Assembly: GCA_028869185.1 (NCBI GenBank)
Contig: JAGWTA010000003.1
Location: 124,001-188,000, forward strand
From: Hyphomicrobiales bacterium
GTDB lineage: Bacteria > Pseudomonadota > Alphaproteobacteria > Rhizobiales > Beijerinckiaceae
DNA length: 64,000 bases
Reading direction: 5' to 3'
Shown: piece after piece, positions 3,957 through 61,575 of the stretch
How the letters are laid out: each line of letters begins with the position of its first letter
Numbering within the stretch: the first letter of the stretch is position 1
Translations under genes and position numbers: made by a program
Notes under the pieces: generated by a model
The model's database searches: none
Told to the model about the DNA's origin: nothing
The model's input: only the letters and a program-made list of their open reading frames with translations

Positions 3957-5294
3957 ATGGGCGAAGCCTTTCGCGTCTGGCTGCGCATCGCTGCGCTCAG
4001 CTTCGGCGGGCCCGCCGGGCAGATCGCGGTCATGCACAAGATCATCGTCGAGGAGAAACGCTGGATCTCCGACGAGCGCTTTCTGCACGCGCTCAATTTC
4101 TGCATGCTGCTGCCGGGCCCCGAGGCGCAGCAACTGGCGACCTATATCGGCTGGCTGATGCACAGAACGGCGGGCGGCGTTCTGGCCGGTGGGCTGTTCA
4201 TCCTGCCGGGCGTCGTCGCGATCATGGCGCTCAGCATCGTCTATGCGCTCTATGGCGGCGTCGGAATCGTGGCGGCGCTGTTCTTCGGGCTGAAGACGGC
4301 GGTGCTCGCCATTGTCGCGCAGGCGGTCCTGCGCGTTGGCGGGCGCGCCCTGAAGAACAATGTCATGCGCGCCTTCGCGGCCCTCGGCTTTGTCGGCATC
4401 TTTTTCTTCGCCCTGCCGTTTCCGCTGATCATCCTGATCGCGGGCGTCATCGGGTTCCTCGGCGGGCGCGCGGGCCATGCAGCGTTCGCCCGCGGACCGG
4501 CCGACGCCGGCGGCGGGGCGGGCGACAGCCTGCTCGGCGAGACGACGCCCGCCCATGCGCAGCCCTCGCTCACAGCCGCCGCCAAAGCCATCGCGGTCTG
4601 GCTGCCGGTCTGGCTCGCGCCCGTCGCCGCCCTGCTCGTCTGGTTCGGACCTGACCACATCTTCAGCCAGATTGCGGTGTTCTTCAGCAAAATGGCGGTC
4701 GTCACGTTCGGCGGCGCCTATGCCGCGCTCGCCTATGTCGCCCAGCAGGCCGTCGGGCGGTTTCATTGGCTGGGCGCGAAGGAGATGCTCGACGGGCTCG
4801 GCATGGCCGAGACGACGCCGGGCCCGCTCATCATGGTGCTGCAATTCGTAGGCTTCATCGCGGCCTACCGCGCGCCGGGCGCGTTCGCGCCGCTGACGGC
4901 GGGCGCGATGGGTGGGCTGATTGCGACATGGGCAACGTTTGCGCCCTGTTTTCTATGGATTTTCCTTGGCGCGCCGTTCAACGAACGGATGCGTGACAAC
5001 AAGGCGCTCGCCGGCGCGCTGTCGGCGATCGCTGCTGTCGTCGTGGGCGCGATCCTCAATGTCGCGCTGTGGTTTGCGATCCACACGCTATTCCGGCAGG
5101 TCGTTGCGGTGCACAGATTCGGGCTGACCTTCGATGCGCCTGCGCCCGCCAGCCTCGACCCCTGCGCGTTGACCCTTTCGGTCGGCGCCGCGCTGGCCAT
5201 TTTCCGATTCAGGGCGGGAATGCTGCAGACGCTGGCCGCCTGCTCCGCTGCGGGCGTCGGGCTTTTTCTGGCCGGAGCGCCCTGCGCGCTGTGA
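3957..5294 (+). CDS. chrA: Chromate transporter ChrA (CHR family)
   Basis: 445-residue inner-membrane protein, long form with two homologous halves. The N-terminal half has FGGPAGQIAVMH and NFCMLLPGPEAQQLATYIG; the C-terminal half repeats this as FGGAYAALAYVAQ and GMAETTPGPLIMVLQFVG. These FGG and PGP blocks are diagnostic of CHR proteins, which export chromate by proton-motive force. The ATG at 3957 was chosen because the family begins with the GEAFRVWLRIAALSFGGP segment; a GTG at 3912 would add 15 poorly conserved residues. It is divergent from the TPP/GMC/MFS operon and no ChrB regulator is next to it, so a role in chromate resistance is likely but unproven. Confidence 0.88.
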   Translation: MGEAFRVWLRIAALSFGGPAGQIAVMHKIIVEEKRWISDERFLHALNFCMLLPGPEAQQLATYIGWLMHRTAGGVLAGGLFILPGVVAIMALSIVYALYGGVGIVAALFFGLKTAVLAIVAQAVLRVGGRALKNNVMRAFAALGFVGIFFFALPFPLIILIAGVIGFLGGRAGHAAFARGPADAGGGAGDSLLGETTPAHAQPSLTAAAKAIAVWLPVWLAPVAALLVWFGPDHIFSQIAVFFSKMAVVTFGGAYAALAYVAQQAVGRFHWLGAKEMLDGLGMAETTPGPLIMVLQFVGFIAAYRAPGAFAPLTAGAMGGLIATWATFAPCFLWIFLGAPFNERMRDNKALAGALSAIAAVVVGAILNVALWFAIHTLFRQVVAVHRFGLTFDAPAPASLDPCALTLSVGAALAIFRFRAGMLQTLAACSAAGVGLFLAGAPCAL

Positions 5295-5329
5295 CGCGTG
5301 GGTATGAAGCGCCGCCATGAACCCGCCCA

Positions 5330-5357
5330 TTGACAAAATCTAGAACAAAACTAGAAC
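5330..5357 (+). promoter_or_regulatory. LexA-box promoter of the radical SAM/UdgX operon
   Basis: GAAC at 5343-5346 and GAAC at 5354-5357 are separated by 7 bases, the alphaproteobacterial SOS box (GTTCN7GTTC on the other strand). A perfect -35 TTGACA sits at 5330-5335 and a -10-like TAGAAC at 5352-5357 (16-bp spacer), so bound LexA would cover the -10. Transcription would begin at about 5363-5365, at the ATG itself. Confidence 0.75.
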
Positions 5358-5363
5358 AAAGAA

Positions 5364-6605
5364 ATGCCGAAACTCGAGACGATCGACAAGCTCGCGATCC
5401 TTGCGGACGCGGCCAAATACGACGCCTCCTGCGCCTCCTCGGGCGCCGGGGGCCGCACGTCGCGCGGGGGCAGGGGCGTCGGCGCTACCGATGGCGCTGG
5501 CATCTGTCACGCCTATACGCCGGACGGGCGCTGCGTGTCGCTTTTGAAAATCCTGATGACCAATTATTGCATGTTCGATTGCGCCTATTGCGTGAACCGC
5601 ATTTCGTCCAACGTCCGGCGCGCGCGGTTCACGGTCGAGGAGGTCGTCGCGCTGACGCTCGACTTCTACAAGCGCAATTACATCGAGGGGCTTTTTCTTT
5701 CGTCGGGCATCATTCGCTCGCCCGATTACACGATGGGCGAACTCGTGCGCATCGCGCAACGGCTGCGCTGCGACCATGACTTCCGCGGCTATATCCATTT
5801 GAAAACGATTCCGGACGCTGACCCCGCGTTGCTCGATGAAGCCGGACTCTACGCCGACCGCCTGTCGATCAACATCGAACTTGCGAACGCCGATGCGCTC
5901 TCGCAGCTCGCGCCGGAGAAGAGCCTGCCCGCCATCCGCAAGTCGATGGGGCGGCTGCGTCTCAAGATAGAGGATGCGAAAGGCGAGCGCGCGAAGAGCC
6001 GCAAGGCGCCGCGCTATGCGCCGTCGGGGCAATCGACGCAGATGATCGTCGGCGCCGACAGCGCGCGCGACATCGACATTGTCGGAACGAGCGCGCTGCT
6101 CTACGCCAATTACAGTCTGAAGCGCGTCTATTATTCCGCCTTCTCGCCGATTCCCGATTCTTCGGCCGCCTTGCCGCTGAAGGCGCCGCCGCTCATGCGC
6201 GAACATCGCCTGTATCAAGCCGACTGGTTGCTGCGCTATTACGGTTTCACGGTCGACGAGATTGCGACAGGCGCGCAGGGCGGCATGCTCGATCTGGCGC
6301 TCGATCCCAAGACGACCTGGGCGCTGGCCAATCGCGCGCTGTTTCCGGTCGACGTCAATCGCGCGCCTTATGAAATGCTGATTCGCATTCCCGGTCTTGG
6401 CGTGCGCGCCGCCCAGCGCATCGTCGCAACGCGGCGCTTTCACCGGCTGCGTCTTGCAGACCTCAGCCGCCTGACGACGTCGATCCGGAAAATGACGCCG
6501 TTTATTTGCGCCGCAGACTGGCGCCCCGGCGCGTTGACGGACGAAGCCGATCTGGCGGCGCGGCTGAAGCCGCCCGCGCGCCAGCTCGATCTGTTCGCGG
6601 TCTGA
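5364..6605 (+). CDS. Putative DNA modification/repair radical SAM protein
   Basis: 413 residues. Cys69-x3-Cys73-x2-Cys76 in TNYCMFDCAYC binds the 4Fe-4S cluster of radical SAM enzymes. The N-terminus (ILADAAKYDASCASSG) is typical of the family annotated as putative DNA modification/repair radical SAM protein. The C-terminal region holds a helix-hairpin-helix DNA-binding motif, IPGLGVRAAQRIVATRRF, near residues 345-365. The stop codon overlaps the start of the UdgX gene (TGATG), and the two families are known to travel together. Regulation by LexA is indicated by the SOS box directly upstream. There is no Shine-Dalgarno sequence before the ATG, so the mRNA may be leaderless. The reaction is unknown. 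Confidence 0.9.
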   Translation: MPKLETIDKLAILADAAKYDASCASSGAGGRTSRGGRGVGATDGAGICHAYTPDGRCVSLLKILMTNYCMFDCAYCVNRISSNVRRARFTVEEVVALTLDFYKRNYIEGLFLSSGIIRSPDYTMGELVRIAQRLRCDHDFRGYIHLKTIPDADPALLDEAGLYADRLSINIELANADALSQLAPEKSLPAIRKSMGRLRLKIEDAKGERAKSRKAPRYAPSGQSTQMIVGADSARDIDIVGTSALLYANYSLKRVYYSAFSPIPDSSAALPLKAPPLMREHRLYQADWLLRYYGFTVDEIATGAQGGMLDLALDPKTTWALANRALFPVDVNRAPYEMLIRIPGLGVRAAQRIVATRRFHRLRLADLSRLTTSIRKMTPFICAADWRPGALTDEADLAARLKPPARQLDLFAV

Positions 6606-8005
6606 TGCGCGCGATCACGCTGACAGGCGAAACCGATACGGCCGGATTTTACGCCGCCGCGGCCGCGCTCGCACAGCAAGACGTATCGGCGCGCGATGTG
6701 GAATGGCGGACCCTTGCGCGCGAGCGCGATCTGTTCGCAGCACAGGACGCGAGCCTAGCGCCTCAGCGCGCCGCCGATGCAGATCGCCCGCCGCGCGCAT
6801 TCATCGCAGCGACGCGCGTCATGCTGCTGCATCGCGATCCCGCCCGTTTCGCGCTGGCCTATCGTCTGCTGCATCGGCTGAAGCGCGAACCAAATCTCTT
6901 GCAGATCGCCAGCGATCCCGACGTCGCGCGTGCGGGCGCGATGGCGAAGGCGGTGCGGCGCGATGTGCACAAGATGAAAGCTTTCGTGCGGTTCCGCGCC
7001 TTGCGCTTTTCCGATGACACGGAATTTTTCGTCAGCTGGTTCGAGCCGGAGCATCATGTCGTGGCGGCCGTCGCGCCGCATTTTGTCGATCGTTTCGCCA
7101 ATATGCGCTGGTCGATCCTGACGCCGCGCGCCAGCGCGCATTGGGATGGCGCCGCGCTTCGCCTCGCCGGCGGCGCAACGCGCGCCGATGCGCCGGGCGA
7201 CGATGCGCTTGAAGCGTTATGGCGAACGTATTTCGCGCATATCTTCAATCCCGCGCGGCTCAACGTGAAGGCGATGCAATTGCAGATGCCGAAAAAATAC
7301 TGGGCGAACCTGCCCGAAGCAGCCATCATCGCGCCGCTTGTGGCGGGCGCGCCGGCAAGGGCGCGCGCCATGCTGGCGGCGGCGCCGCGCCTCGTCGCCG
7401 CGCGCCATGCGTGCGGCGATCCGGGCGATCGCACGGGCGGGGCGTTGCAGGGATGCCGCCGCTGTCCGCTCTGGCGCGACGCAACTCAGGCCGTCGCGGG
7501 CGAGGGGCCGCTGGACGCTGCGCTGATGATCGTCGGCGAACAGCCGGGCGACCGGGAGGATATCGCCGGCAAGCCTTTCGTGGGGCCAGCGGGCCGACTG
7601 CTCGACGAAGCGCTCGCGCGCGCGGGCGTCGAGCGCGCCAAAGCCTATGTCACCAATGCGGTCAAACATTTCAAATTCGAGCCGCGCGGCAAGCAGCGGC
7701 TGCACAAGACGCCGGCGGCGGCGGAAATCGACGCCTGCCGCCATTGGCTCGACGGCGAGCGTGCGTTGGTCAAACCCAAACTGATCCTCGCGCTCGGCGC
7801 CAGCGCGCTGCGCGGGCTGGGGCTCAGGTCGGCGTCCATCTCCAGCCTGCGCGGCTCAGCTCACGCCCTGCCCGATGCGACGTTGATCGCGACGGTCCAC
7901 CCCTCTTATCTGCTGCGCCTGCGCGACGAAGACGAAAAACGCGAACAATGGCGCGCGTTTCTCGCCGACCTGCGCAAGGCGCAAGAGGCGCTGCAGGAGT
8001 TATAG
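6605..8005 (+). CDS. udgX: DUF4130-UdgX fusion: uracil-DNA glycosylase superfamily cross-linking protein
   Basis: 466 residues with two parts. The N-terminal half (FRALRFSDDTEFFVSWFEPEHH) is the DUF4130 domain that accompanies the radical SAM partner. The C-terminal 200 residues are a family-4-like uracil-DNA glycosylase: GEQPGDRED near residue 310, FVGPAGRLLDEAL, YVTNAVKHFKF, and the C-terminal HPSYLLR. The UdgX signature loop KRRIH appears as KQRLH near residues 363-367, keeping the His that in UdgX bonds covalently to the abasic sugar after uracil removal. Start is the ATG at 6605, overlapping the previous stop. The expected role is damage sensing or repair of uracil in DNA under SOS control. 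Confidence 0.9.
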   Translation: MRAITLTGETDTAGFYAAAAALAQQDVSARDVEWRTLARERDLFAAQDASLAPQRAADADRPPRAFIAATRVMLLHRDPARFALAYRLLHRLKREPNLLQIASDPDVARAGAMAKAVRRDVHKMKAFVRFRALRFSDDTEFFVSWFEPEHHVVAAVAPHFVDRFANMRWSILTPRASAHWDGAALRLAGGATRADAPGDDALEALWRTYFAHIFNPARLNVKAMQLQMPKKYWANLPEAAIIAPLVAGAPARARAMLAAAPRLVAARHACGDPGDRTGGALQGCRRCPLWRDATQAVAGEGPLDAALMIVGEQPGDREDIAGKPFVGPAGRLLDEALARAGVERAKAYVTNAVKHFKFEPRGKQRLHKTPAAAEIDACRHWLDGERALVKPKLILALGASALRGLGLRSASISSLRGSAHALPDATLIATVHPSYLLRLRDEDEKREQWRAFLADLRKAQEALQEL

Positions 8006-8071
8006 CGTCGGCGCGGCCGCGCGTCGCATTGCATTTATCGTGTAAAATCAGGGATGTATTGTTCAGGCGGC

Positions 8072-8161
8072 TGGCGGAGAGGGAGGGATTCGAACCCCCG
8101 GTACCGTTGCCGGTACTCCGCATTTCGAGTGCGGCGCGATCGACCACTCTGCCACCTCTCC
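8072..8161 (-). tRNA. tRNA-Ser(CGA)
   Basis: Class II tRNA, 90 nt with the 3' CCA encoded. Acceptor stem GGAGAGG/CCTCTCC with G discriminator, D-arm GCAGAGTGGTC, anticodon stem CCGCA/TGCGG with loop CTCGAAA (anticodon CGA, plus-strand bases 8125-8127), a long variable arm GTACCGGCAACGGTAC that folds on itself, and the T-arm GGGTTCGAATCCC. It reads UCG serine codons. It stands alone between the UdgX gene and rplU. Confidence 0.96.
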
Positions 8162-8244
8162 GCGGCGCAGCCTTGCGGCGGCTGGTCGAGGCGCGCCAAT
8201 AGCATCGGCGCGGCCGCGGGACAAGCGATATTGCACGCTTTTCA

Positions 8245-8273
8245 TTGACAGCGCGCGGTCTTTGCCCTTACAA
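8245..8273 (+). promoter_or_regulatory. Sigma-70-type promoter of rplU-rpmA
   Basis: TTGACA at 8245-8250 and TTACAA at 8268-8273 are separated by 17 bp. Transcription would start near 8280, giving a leader of about 125 nt before rplU. No defined riboswitch was recognised in that leader. Confidence 0.6.
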
Positions 8274-8406
8274 ACCGCCCGCTGGCCATTTTGCGCGGGT
8301 TTCCGCGCTCTTTGGCTTGCTCCGGTCTCAACCATTCTTTCGGTCTCTAACTGCAAGAAGCCGGCCGACGGTCTCCGTCAGGCGCGGAATCGAACACGAG
8401 GACAAG

Positions 8407-60245: not shown

Positions 60246-60566
60246 TCAGCGGCCCGCCTTCACGTCGGCGACGGCCTGCGCCATCTGCTCGTTCATTTCG
60301 CGTTCGATCTGGTGTTCGGACACCTGAACGCCGTGGCGTATGAAATCGCCCATCAGCTTGCGCACCACATCGGCGTCGCCGGCTTCCTCGAGATCGGCCG
60401 CCATCAATTCCTTGAAATAGGCGTCGGCCTGCTCAGGCTTGCCCCACTTTTCGCAGGCCCAGGCGGCCAGCCGCTTGTTGCGCTTGGCTGTCGCTTTGAA
60501 CTGCAATTCTTCGTCGTGGGCGAATTTCTTTTCGAAGCTTTCTTCCCGCTTGTCGAACCCGCTCAT
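60246..60566 (-). CDS. F1F0-ATPase zeta inhibitor subunit (DUF1476)
   Basis: 106 residues from the ATG at 60566 behind AGGAGAGG. MSGFDKREESFEKKFAHDEE is the inhibitory N-terminal helix of the alphaproteobacterial zeta subunit, known from Paracoccus to block F1-ATPase rotation, and the rest (KRNKRLAAWACEKWG, DVVRKLMGDF, EREMNEQMAQAVADV) is the four-helix body. It binds at the catalytic interface of F1 when energy is low. The gene is divergent from purC, with about 215 bp between the starts. Confidence 0.93.
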   Translation of the reverse strand: MSGFDKREESFEKKFAHDEELQFKATAKRNKRLAAWACEKWGKPEQADAYFKELMAADLEEAGDADVVRKLMGDFIRHGVQVSEHQIEREMNEQMAQAVADVKAGR

Positions 60567-60783
60567 TCGCCTCTCCTGTTCCGCGAATCCCATTGGCCGG
60601 GTGTATAGGACGGGGCAAGGGCCATGCCTAGACGCAATTGCAGCAAAATGGCGCCGCAAAAGTCGAAGGCGCCGGGAGGCGTCGGGTTGTTTCGCCCGGC
60701 TGGCTGCGCTACCACGGCCATGCACCCGCCGGCCCAGCCGGCGCAGCGCGGGGCGCCCCCCAGAGAGAGCCACGAGCTGATTT

Positions 60784-61575
60784 ATGGATTTCCTCAAGCC
60801 ACGGTTGATCCCCATGAACCGCCGCCGCCGCATCTACGAAGGCAAGGCCAAGGTTTTGTACGAAGGCCCCGAGCCCGGCACGCTGATCCAGCATTTCAAG
60901 GACGACGCCACCGCCTTCAACGCCAAAAAGCATGAAGTGATCGACGGCAAGGGCGTCCTGAACAACCGCATCTCGGAATATATTTTCCAGCACCTCAACA
61001 ACATCGGCGTGCCGACGCATTTCATCCGCCGGATGAACATGCGCGAGCAGCTGATCCGCGAGGTGGAGATCGTGCCGCTGGAAGTCGTGGTGCGCAATGT
61101 GGCGGCAGGCTCGCTGTCGCAGCGCCTCGGCATCGAGGAGGGCACGCAGCTGCCGCGCTCGATCATCGAGTTCTATTACAAGAACGATGCGCTCAACGAT
61201 CCGATGGTGTCGGAAGAACACATCACGGCGTTCGGTTGGGCCAATCCGCAGGAGATCGACGACATCATGGCCCTGGCCATTCGCGTCAACGATTTCCTGA
61301 CGGGCCTGTTTCTGGGCGTCGGCATCCGTCTCGTCGATTTCAAGATGGAATGCGGGCGCCTTTGGGAAGGCGACATGATGCGCATCGTGGTTGCCGATGA
61401 AATCTCCCCCGACTCCTGCCGGCTGTGGGACATGAAGTCGAACGACAAGCTCGACAAGGATCGTTTCCGCCGCGACATGGGCGGCCTCGTCGAGGCCTAT
61501 ACCGAAGTCGCGCGCCGTCTCGGCATCATGCAGCCCGAAGACGCCCCGCGTGGCGGACCGAAGCTGGTGCAATGA
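60784..61575 (+). CDS. purC: Phosphoribosylaminoimidazole-succinocarboxamide synthase
   Basis: 263 residues. Joins aspartate to CAIR in purine synthesis. [19 protein letters not shown] is the ATP-binding start, [18 protein letters not shown] the core, and [15 protein letters not shown] and [14 protein letters not shown] the conserved active-site blocks. The ATG at 60784 adds a short N-terminal extension; ATG 60814 is an alternative. Its stop overlaps the first start of purS (ATGATG), giving a purC-purS-purQ operon. Confidence 0.96.

Follow-up and report, generated by a model that had tools for sequence, protein, structure and literature searches.

Organization of the radical SAM/UdgX operon

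The window, i.e. the whole 64 kb stretch of DNA that was analysed, carries a two-gene operon with a LexA-type repeat just upstream of its first start codon. The features are as follows.

5330..5335, + strand: −35 element TTGACA, read directly; half of the top-scoring promoter pair (score 12.7)
5343..5357, + strand: LexA (SOS) box GAACAAAACTAGAAC, an exact GAACN7GAAC / GTTCN7GTTC direct repeat
5352..5357, + strand: −10 element TAGAAC, overlapping the second half-site of the box, after a 16-nt spacer and 6 nt before the ATG
5364..5366, + strand: start codon ATG, with the predicted transcription start on its A (sequence reading and promoter scan)
5364..6605, + strand: radical SAM protein TIGR03916 (rSAM_link_UDG), 413 aa, 555.7 bits against a cut-off of 343.5
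6605..8005, + strand: TIGR03915/DUF4130-UdgX fusion protein, 466 aa, 212.3 and 283.8 bits, both over the cut-off

It can be seen that the predicted −10 element contains the second half-site of the box, i.e. the box overlaps the promoter, as is looked for in members of a LexA regulon. The start of the radical SAM gene (ORF1) is fixed at 5364 by the stop codon inside the box together with the TIGR03916 profile match, which begins at protein residue 8 (profile position 3). A more upstream start codon in the window was considered and is excluded, because the in-frame TAG at 5352-5354, within the box, is followed by the non-start codons AAC AAA GAA. With an ATG start, no earlier in-frame start and no Shine-Dalgarno sequence (duplex energy +0.2), ORF1 has the sequence characters expected of a leaderless gene. 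A generic sigma-70 scan of positions 4900-8300 called no promoter, because the −10 of the window, TAGAAC, lacks the final T. ACTAGAAC nevertheless fits the Caulobacter −10 form GCTANAWC apart from its first base. These readings agree with the earlier note on this DNA, which had described a perfect GAACN7GAAC box at 5343-5357 covering the −10 of a promoter with TTGACA, a predicted start point coinciding with the ATG at 5364, and the lack of a Shine-Dalgarno sequence. Upstream on the same strand, a chromate transporter gene (PF02417; 3912-5294 (+)) ends 69 bp before the operon, and no terminator-like site was found between the two.

The ATG of the second gene (ORF2) overlaps the stop codon of ORF1 in TGATG (6603-6607), and an ORF2 homologue follows ORF1 in the same orientation in 99 of the 103 loci with enough flank. 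The CX3CX2C cysteines of the TIGR03916 protein (C69, C73 and C76) are invariant in 29 sequences. Outside this motif C23, C48 and C57 are also invariant in these 29 sequences; they could be ligands of an additional iron-sulfur cluster, and they lie in a stretch where the structure model is uncertain (residues 21-38 and 44-63 have a pLDDT below 50; mean 76.9). The model matches radical SAM folds only generally (TM at most 0.56 among the 50 matches listed), and the protein has a helix-hairpin-helix region. In ORF2, the UdgX (TIGR03914) profile scores 283.8 bits against a cut-off of 189.95; motif A (GEQPG) is found at 311-315 together with the loop KQRLH, and residues E312, Q313, R365 and H367, which align with solved UdgX, are invariant in 31 sequences. 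The best 50 of the 68 structure matches of the ORF2 model were nearly all uracil-DNA glycosylases, and nothing informative on the DUF4130 part was found among these 50. Relatives of ORF1 occur in 158 of 72,556 plasmid records.

LexA boxes in the window and in its genome

The bare box pattern was found twice in the 64 kb window against 1.73 expected, which is not significant, and 68 times in the whole genome against 49 for the reversed pattern. The weight of the box at the operon therefore comes from its position and conservation, not from the bare pattern. The second GAACN7GAAC of the window, GAACGCGAAATGAAC, at 60291-60305 (-), lies inside a same-strand reading frame (60246-60833) and looks like a chance match.

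The genome encodes both LexA (190.8 bits) and RecA (485.3 bits), and its lexA gene has a box 98 nt before the start. Neighbourhoods were read in 20 stretches around selected, mostly AT-rich, boxes out of the 68. Nine of the 68 boxes begin GAACAA. Seven of these nine adjoin the radical SAM/UdgX operon, recA (L118), ssb (L116), rmuC (L110), a DNA polymerase III alpha gene (L122) and, as a pair, a PA0069-family radical SAM gene (L117); no repair gene could be tied to the remaining two, at C1:32944 (L108) and in L114. The two LexA boxes upstream of the PA0069-family gene (L117:200-1506) are 3 nt apart.

Conservation of the box in orthologous operons

The earlier note had set as a check that the box be sought upstream of orthologous operons. 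A search of genome contigs found 590 relatives, from which the best 80 loci were taken. Further loci came from a sample of relatives (match in 17 of 60 genomes, 13 over the cut-off; L021, L023, L024 and L025 were left out as partial or weak matches), from a sample spread evenly over the class (22 of 289 over the cut-off; 12 matches below it, L148-L155 and four without a locus, were dropped) and from a phylum sample (103 of 397; the alphaproteobacterial matches read were L157-L181 and 20 more, not every one). Some genomes were assigned to the Alphaproteobacteria by kinship, and L027, L079 and L094, MAGs titled only Proteobacteria/Pseudomonadota, were counted there. The in-frame ATG, GTG or TTG nearest the homology start was taken as the start codon; in L030 and L038 the true start may instead be an in-frame ATG that follows the box immediately. 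Removal of 12 near-identical start regions from the combined alphaproteobacterial set of 156 loci left 144; in a smaller earlier set, 8 of 112 had been removed.

Among the 80 best-scoring loci, the exact repeat in either orientation lies within 100 bp upstream in 77, against 1 for the reversed pattern. For each other spacer length between 3 and 12, GAAC repeats occur in at most 1 of the 80, and the rest of the same loci holds 15 box matches in 545,566 bases. The three loci without the box are L062 (one mismatch), L077 (Stenotrophomonas) and L080, whose start is cut off and which lay outside the promoter scan, yet is counted among the 80. In the class sample the box was found in 19 of 20 new loci and was absent in L131. 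When all 144 non-redundant alphaproteobacterial orthologues were considered, the exact repeat lay within 120 bp of the start in 140, against 2 in the reversed control (L012, L062, L131 and L158 are without it), and the outcome of the check is thus positive.

Outside the Alphaproteobacteria, 35 genomes had a match and 21 were read (20 chosen to spread over families and genera, plus L156), with L077 as the 22nd locus. A LexA box of another type, CTGTN8ACAG, lies near the start in 18 of these 22 orthologues, the exceptions being L156, L195, L200 and L077. Since two unrelated LexA operator types appear to serve the same gene, this argues for selection on the SOS link itself. Boxes in 140 of 144 alphaproteobacterial and 18 of 22 other loci would place the UdgX operon within the damage response. 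In L191, L192 and L193, the last base of the CTGTN8ACAG box is the first base of the GTG start codon.

Spacing between the box, the promoter and the start codon

In 69 of the 144 alphaproteobacterial orthologues the box ends exactly 2 nt before the start codon. The first set of such loci, 44 in number, has T at −35 in 41, G at −33 in 39 and C at −31 in 32, and both T at −12 and A at −11 in all 44. Across the 69 loci, TTGnC-like 5-mers start at −35 in 46 and at any other position in at most 5; the −35 score averages +2.97 at −35 itself, whereas its mean is below zero at all of the 21 further positions tested. With the −35 element exactly at −35 in this class, the predicted start point is therefore the A of the ATG.

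In 70 of 144 loci the −10 of the best −35/−10 pair ends exactly 6 nt ahead of the start codon, against 2% at random positions; because 30% still read 6 nt after shuffling of the left flank of the box alone, this count is partly built in by the box, and it is the −35 tests that carry the weight. A phase of 5-7 nt was read in 56 of 69 loci with the 2-nt gap, 6 of 23 with a gap of 3-6 nt, 10 of 21 with a gap of 12-18 nt, 6 of 14 with a reverse box, 1 of 13 in the remaining arrangements and 1 of 4 without a box. In the 3-6 nt class the phase is 8-10 nt in 11 of 23 loci, which corresponds to leaders only a few nucleotides long. In the 12-18 nt class (e.g. L047, L048 and L059) the box lies between the −35 and a separate −10, and the latter keeps the phase. 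On a FastTree phylogeny of 143 alphaproteobacterial proteins, at least 31 changes are required for the 5-7 nt phase and 14 for the 2-nt gap, so that the phase must be either labile or noisy in the form in which the scan reads it.

The window itself has a 6-nt gap and a predicted phase of 6 nt, which fits a leaderless start, with the second half-site as the −10. By eye this layout recurs in L022, of the same family, where the scan preferred another promoter pair. L016/L026, of the same genus as the window, have a 25-nt gap and L027 has a 26-nt gap, both with predicted leaders. Near the window, therefore, LexA boxes are kept but the leaderless phase is not fixed.

A strong Shine-Dalgarno sequence was found in 5 of 80 loci with the 5-7 nt phase versus 17 of 64 others (p 0.001, ignoring relatedness), and an ATG start in 79 of 80 versus 57 of 64 (p 0.02, likewise ignoring relatedness). 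The 2-nt class and the other loci do not differ in Shine-Dalgarno strength (8/69 versus 14/75, p 0.26); for ATG use the same comparison gives p 0.06, again with relatedness ignored. Of the 69 loci of the 2-nt class, 19 offer another possible in-frame start codon no more than 60 nt upstream, with no stop in between, and 50 do not. Strong Shine-Dalgarno sequences are present in L030, L038, L142 and L146, three of which have a TTG or GTG start as assigned. Given such orthologues, the same SOS operon would exist both with a leader and in a seemingly leaderless form.

Specificity of the fused motif

The motif GAACRTANNNNGAACNNATG gave 24 matches in 20 whole genomes, hand-picked for the 2-nt layout, and its reversed form gave 0. 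Nineteen matches are the radical SAM/UdgX operon and two are a FlgC-like gene; no long reading frame starts at the other three. Only G596 gave no match; there the 2-nt gap is combined with a different spacer. Within the 20 genomes searched, the fused unit is almost confined to the radical SAM/UdgX operon.

The FlgC-like flagellar rod gene (L234, L243; 1114-1503 (-)) carries this motif of LexA box, 2 nt and ATG in two related alphaproteobacterial genomes, which hints that a flagellar operon may be under SOS control.

Proposed mechanism and alternative readings

We propose that the operon is probably repressed by LexA and, on SOS induction, gives a leaderless mRNA from the ATG at 5364. LexA bound to 5343-5357 would cover the −10 and block RNA polymerase. 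Upon DNA damage, RecA-driven cleavage of LexA would free the promoter, and RNA polymerase at TTGACA-N16-TAGAAC would start on the A of the ATG and make a leaderless mRNA, on which translation would begin directly at the 5' AUG; ORF2 would be reached through the TGATG stop-start overlap by a presumed coupling. The radical SAM enzyme and the DUF4130-UdgX fusion would then be damage-induced DNA repair proteins, UdgX probably excising uracil and capping the abasic site covalently and the radical SAM enzyme probably acting on a damaged base. Judged from sequence, the parts of this proposal differ in strength. Control of the operon by LexA seems nearly certain. A leaderless start is predicted with considerable confidence for the 2-nt class; for the window it is still favoured, with less assurance, because a same-genus relative has a longer predicted leader. 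The gradings of LexA control and of the leaderless start are judgements, not computed values.

The chief alternative retains LexA control and denies the leaderless mRNA: the transcript would have a leader, anything from a few to some tens of nucleotides long, or would be a read-through product of the chromate transporter gene that ends 69 bp upstream, and its translation would not use a Shine-Dalgarno sequence, as often happens in this class of bacteria. We regard this as rather unlikely, though it deserves serious weight. Translation of this kind has a precedent, as Caulobacter translates mRNAs not led by a Shine-Dalgarno sequence as efficiently as led ones, according to the available text of PMC4117421. 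The close relatives L016/L026 and L027 do have predicted leaders, yet L022, of the same family, shares the layout of the window by eye. The 3-6 nt class reads 8-10 nt in 11 of 23 loci, but in the 2-nt class the −35 element stands at a constant −35 relative to the start codon, and the phase is also kept in 10 of the 21 loci with the box 12-18 nt upstream. That no terminator-like site was found before the operon suits the read-through version. Another alternative, that the box matches by chance and LexA does not control the operon, is very improbable: the counts in the window (2 against 1.73) and the genome (68 against 49 reversed) do not by themselves speak against it, but it is rejected by conservation in 140 of 144 orthologues, with other spacers practically absent and non-alphaproteobacterial orthologues carrying their own LexA box type.

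Starting from the preferred LexA-repressed leaderless operon, a wider and more tentative reading, to which we give somewhat less than even weight, is that a unit of less than 40 bp fusing the LexA operator, the −10 and the AUG may be under selection, with a leaderless SOS mRNA that would require no Shine-Dalgarno sequence and would be translated directly by 70S ribosomes; as part of it, the SOS link would have been kept across Proteobacteria while the operator type changed. If true, this would be a natural system in which, during DNA damage, transcriptional derepression is coupled to a distinct way of initiating translation. The fixed operator-to-AUG phase would offer a clean test of why an SOS gene is translated without a leader.

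Comparison with known systems

We take COG4277 to be the same family as TIGR03916. In its available part, PMC8565304 predicts that in Bacteroidetes an operon of a uracil-DNA glycosylase and a radical SAM gene (COG1573-COG4277) is under SOS control, and cites the same control for Verrucomicrobia and Alphaproteobacteria (da Rocha 2008, Erill 2016). The two gene families and the LexA-type control are the same as here, whereas the Bacteroidetes boxes differ from the window box, and the available part of that paper has nothing on box position relative to the start codon or on leaderless mRNA. The earlier note had tied the radical SAM and UdgX proteins to DNA damage; the tie itself is supported by the box in 140 of 144 orthologues, but it is not new, being already in print in the accessible portion of PMC8565304. 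The SOS link of this operon type is thus known in kind and the layout seems new: no description of the box-to-start layout was found in the literature searched, subscription papers lying outside its scope.

In Caulobacter crescentus 375 leaderless mRNAs were mapped (PMC4117421, available text). Those were mapped by experiment, whereas the one described here is predicted and joined to a LexA operator; the text at hand nowhere mentions LexA or SOS.

The precise physiological role of UdgX is called largely unknown in the part of PMC10359453 that was available. UdgX of Mycobacterium smegmatis (PDB 6iod and others) aligns with the present protein at 167.8 bits, and the Glu, Gln, Arg and His of the cross-linking site are present here. 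Unlike the mycobacterial protein, the present one is fused to DUF4130/TIGR03915 and has the loop KQRLH instead of KRRIH.

SplB-like radical SAM repair proteins (COG1533) are described as under SOS control in several species (PMC8565304, part available). The PA0069-family radical SAM gene that adjoins two boxes in the genome of the window (L117) resembles this case; TIGR03916, in contrast to the SplB-like proteins, is a separate family with a helix-hairpin-helix region. DUF4130 has been linked with both SplB-like radical SAM proteins and uracil-DNA glycosylases (PMC3765255, in the section available).
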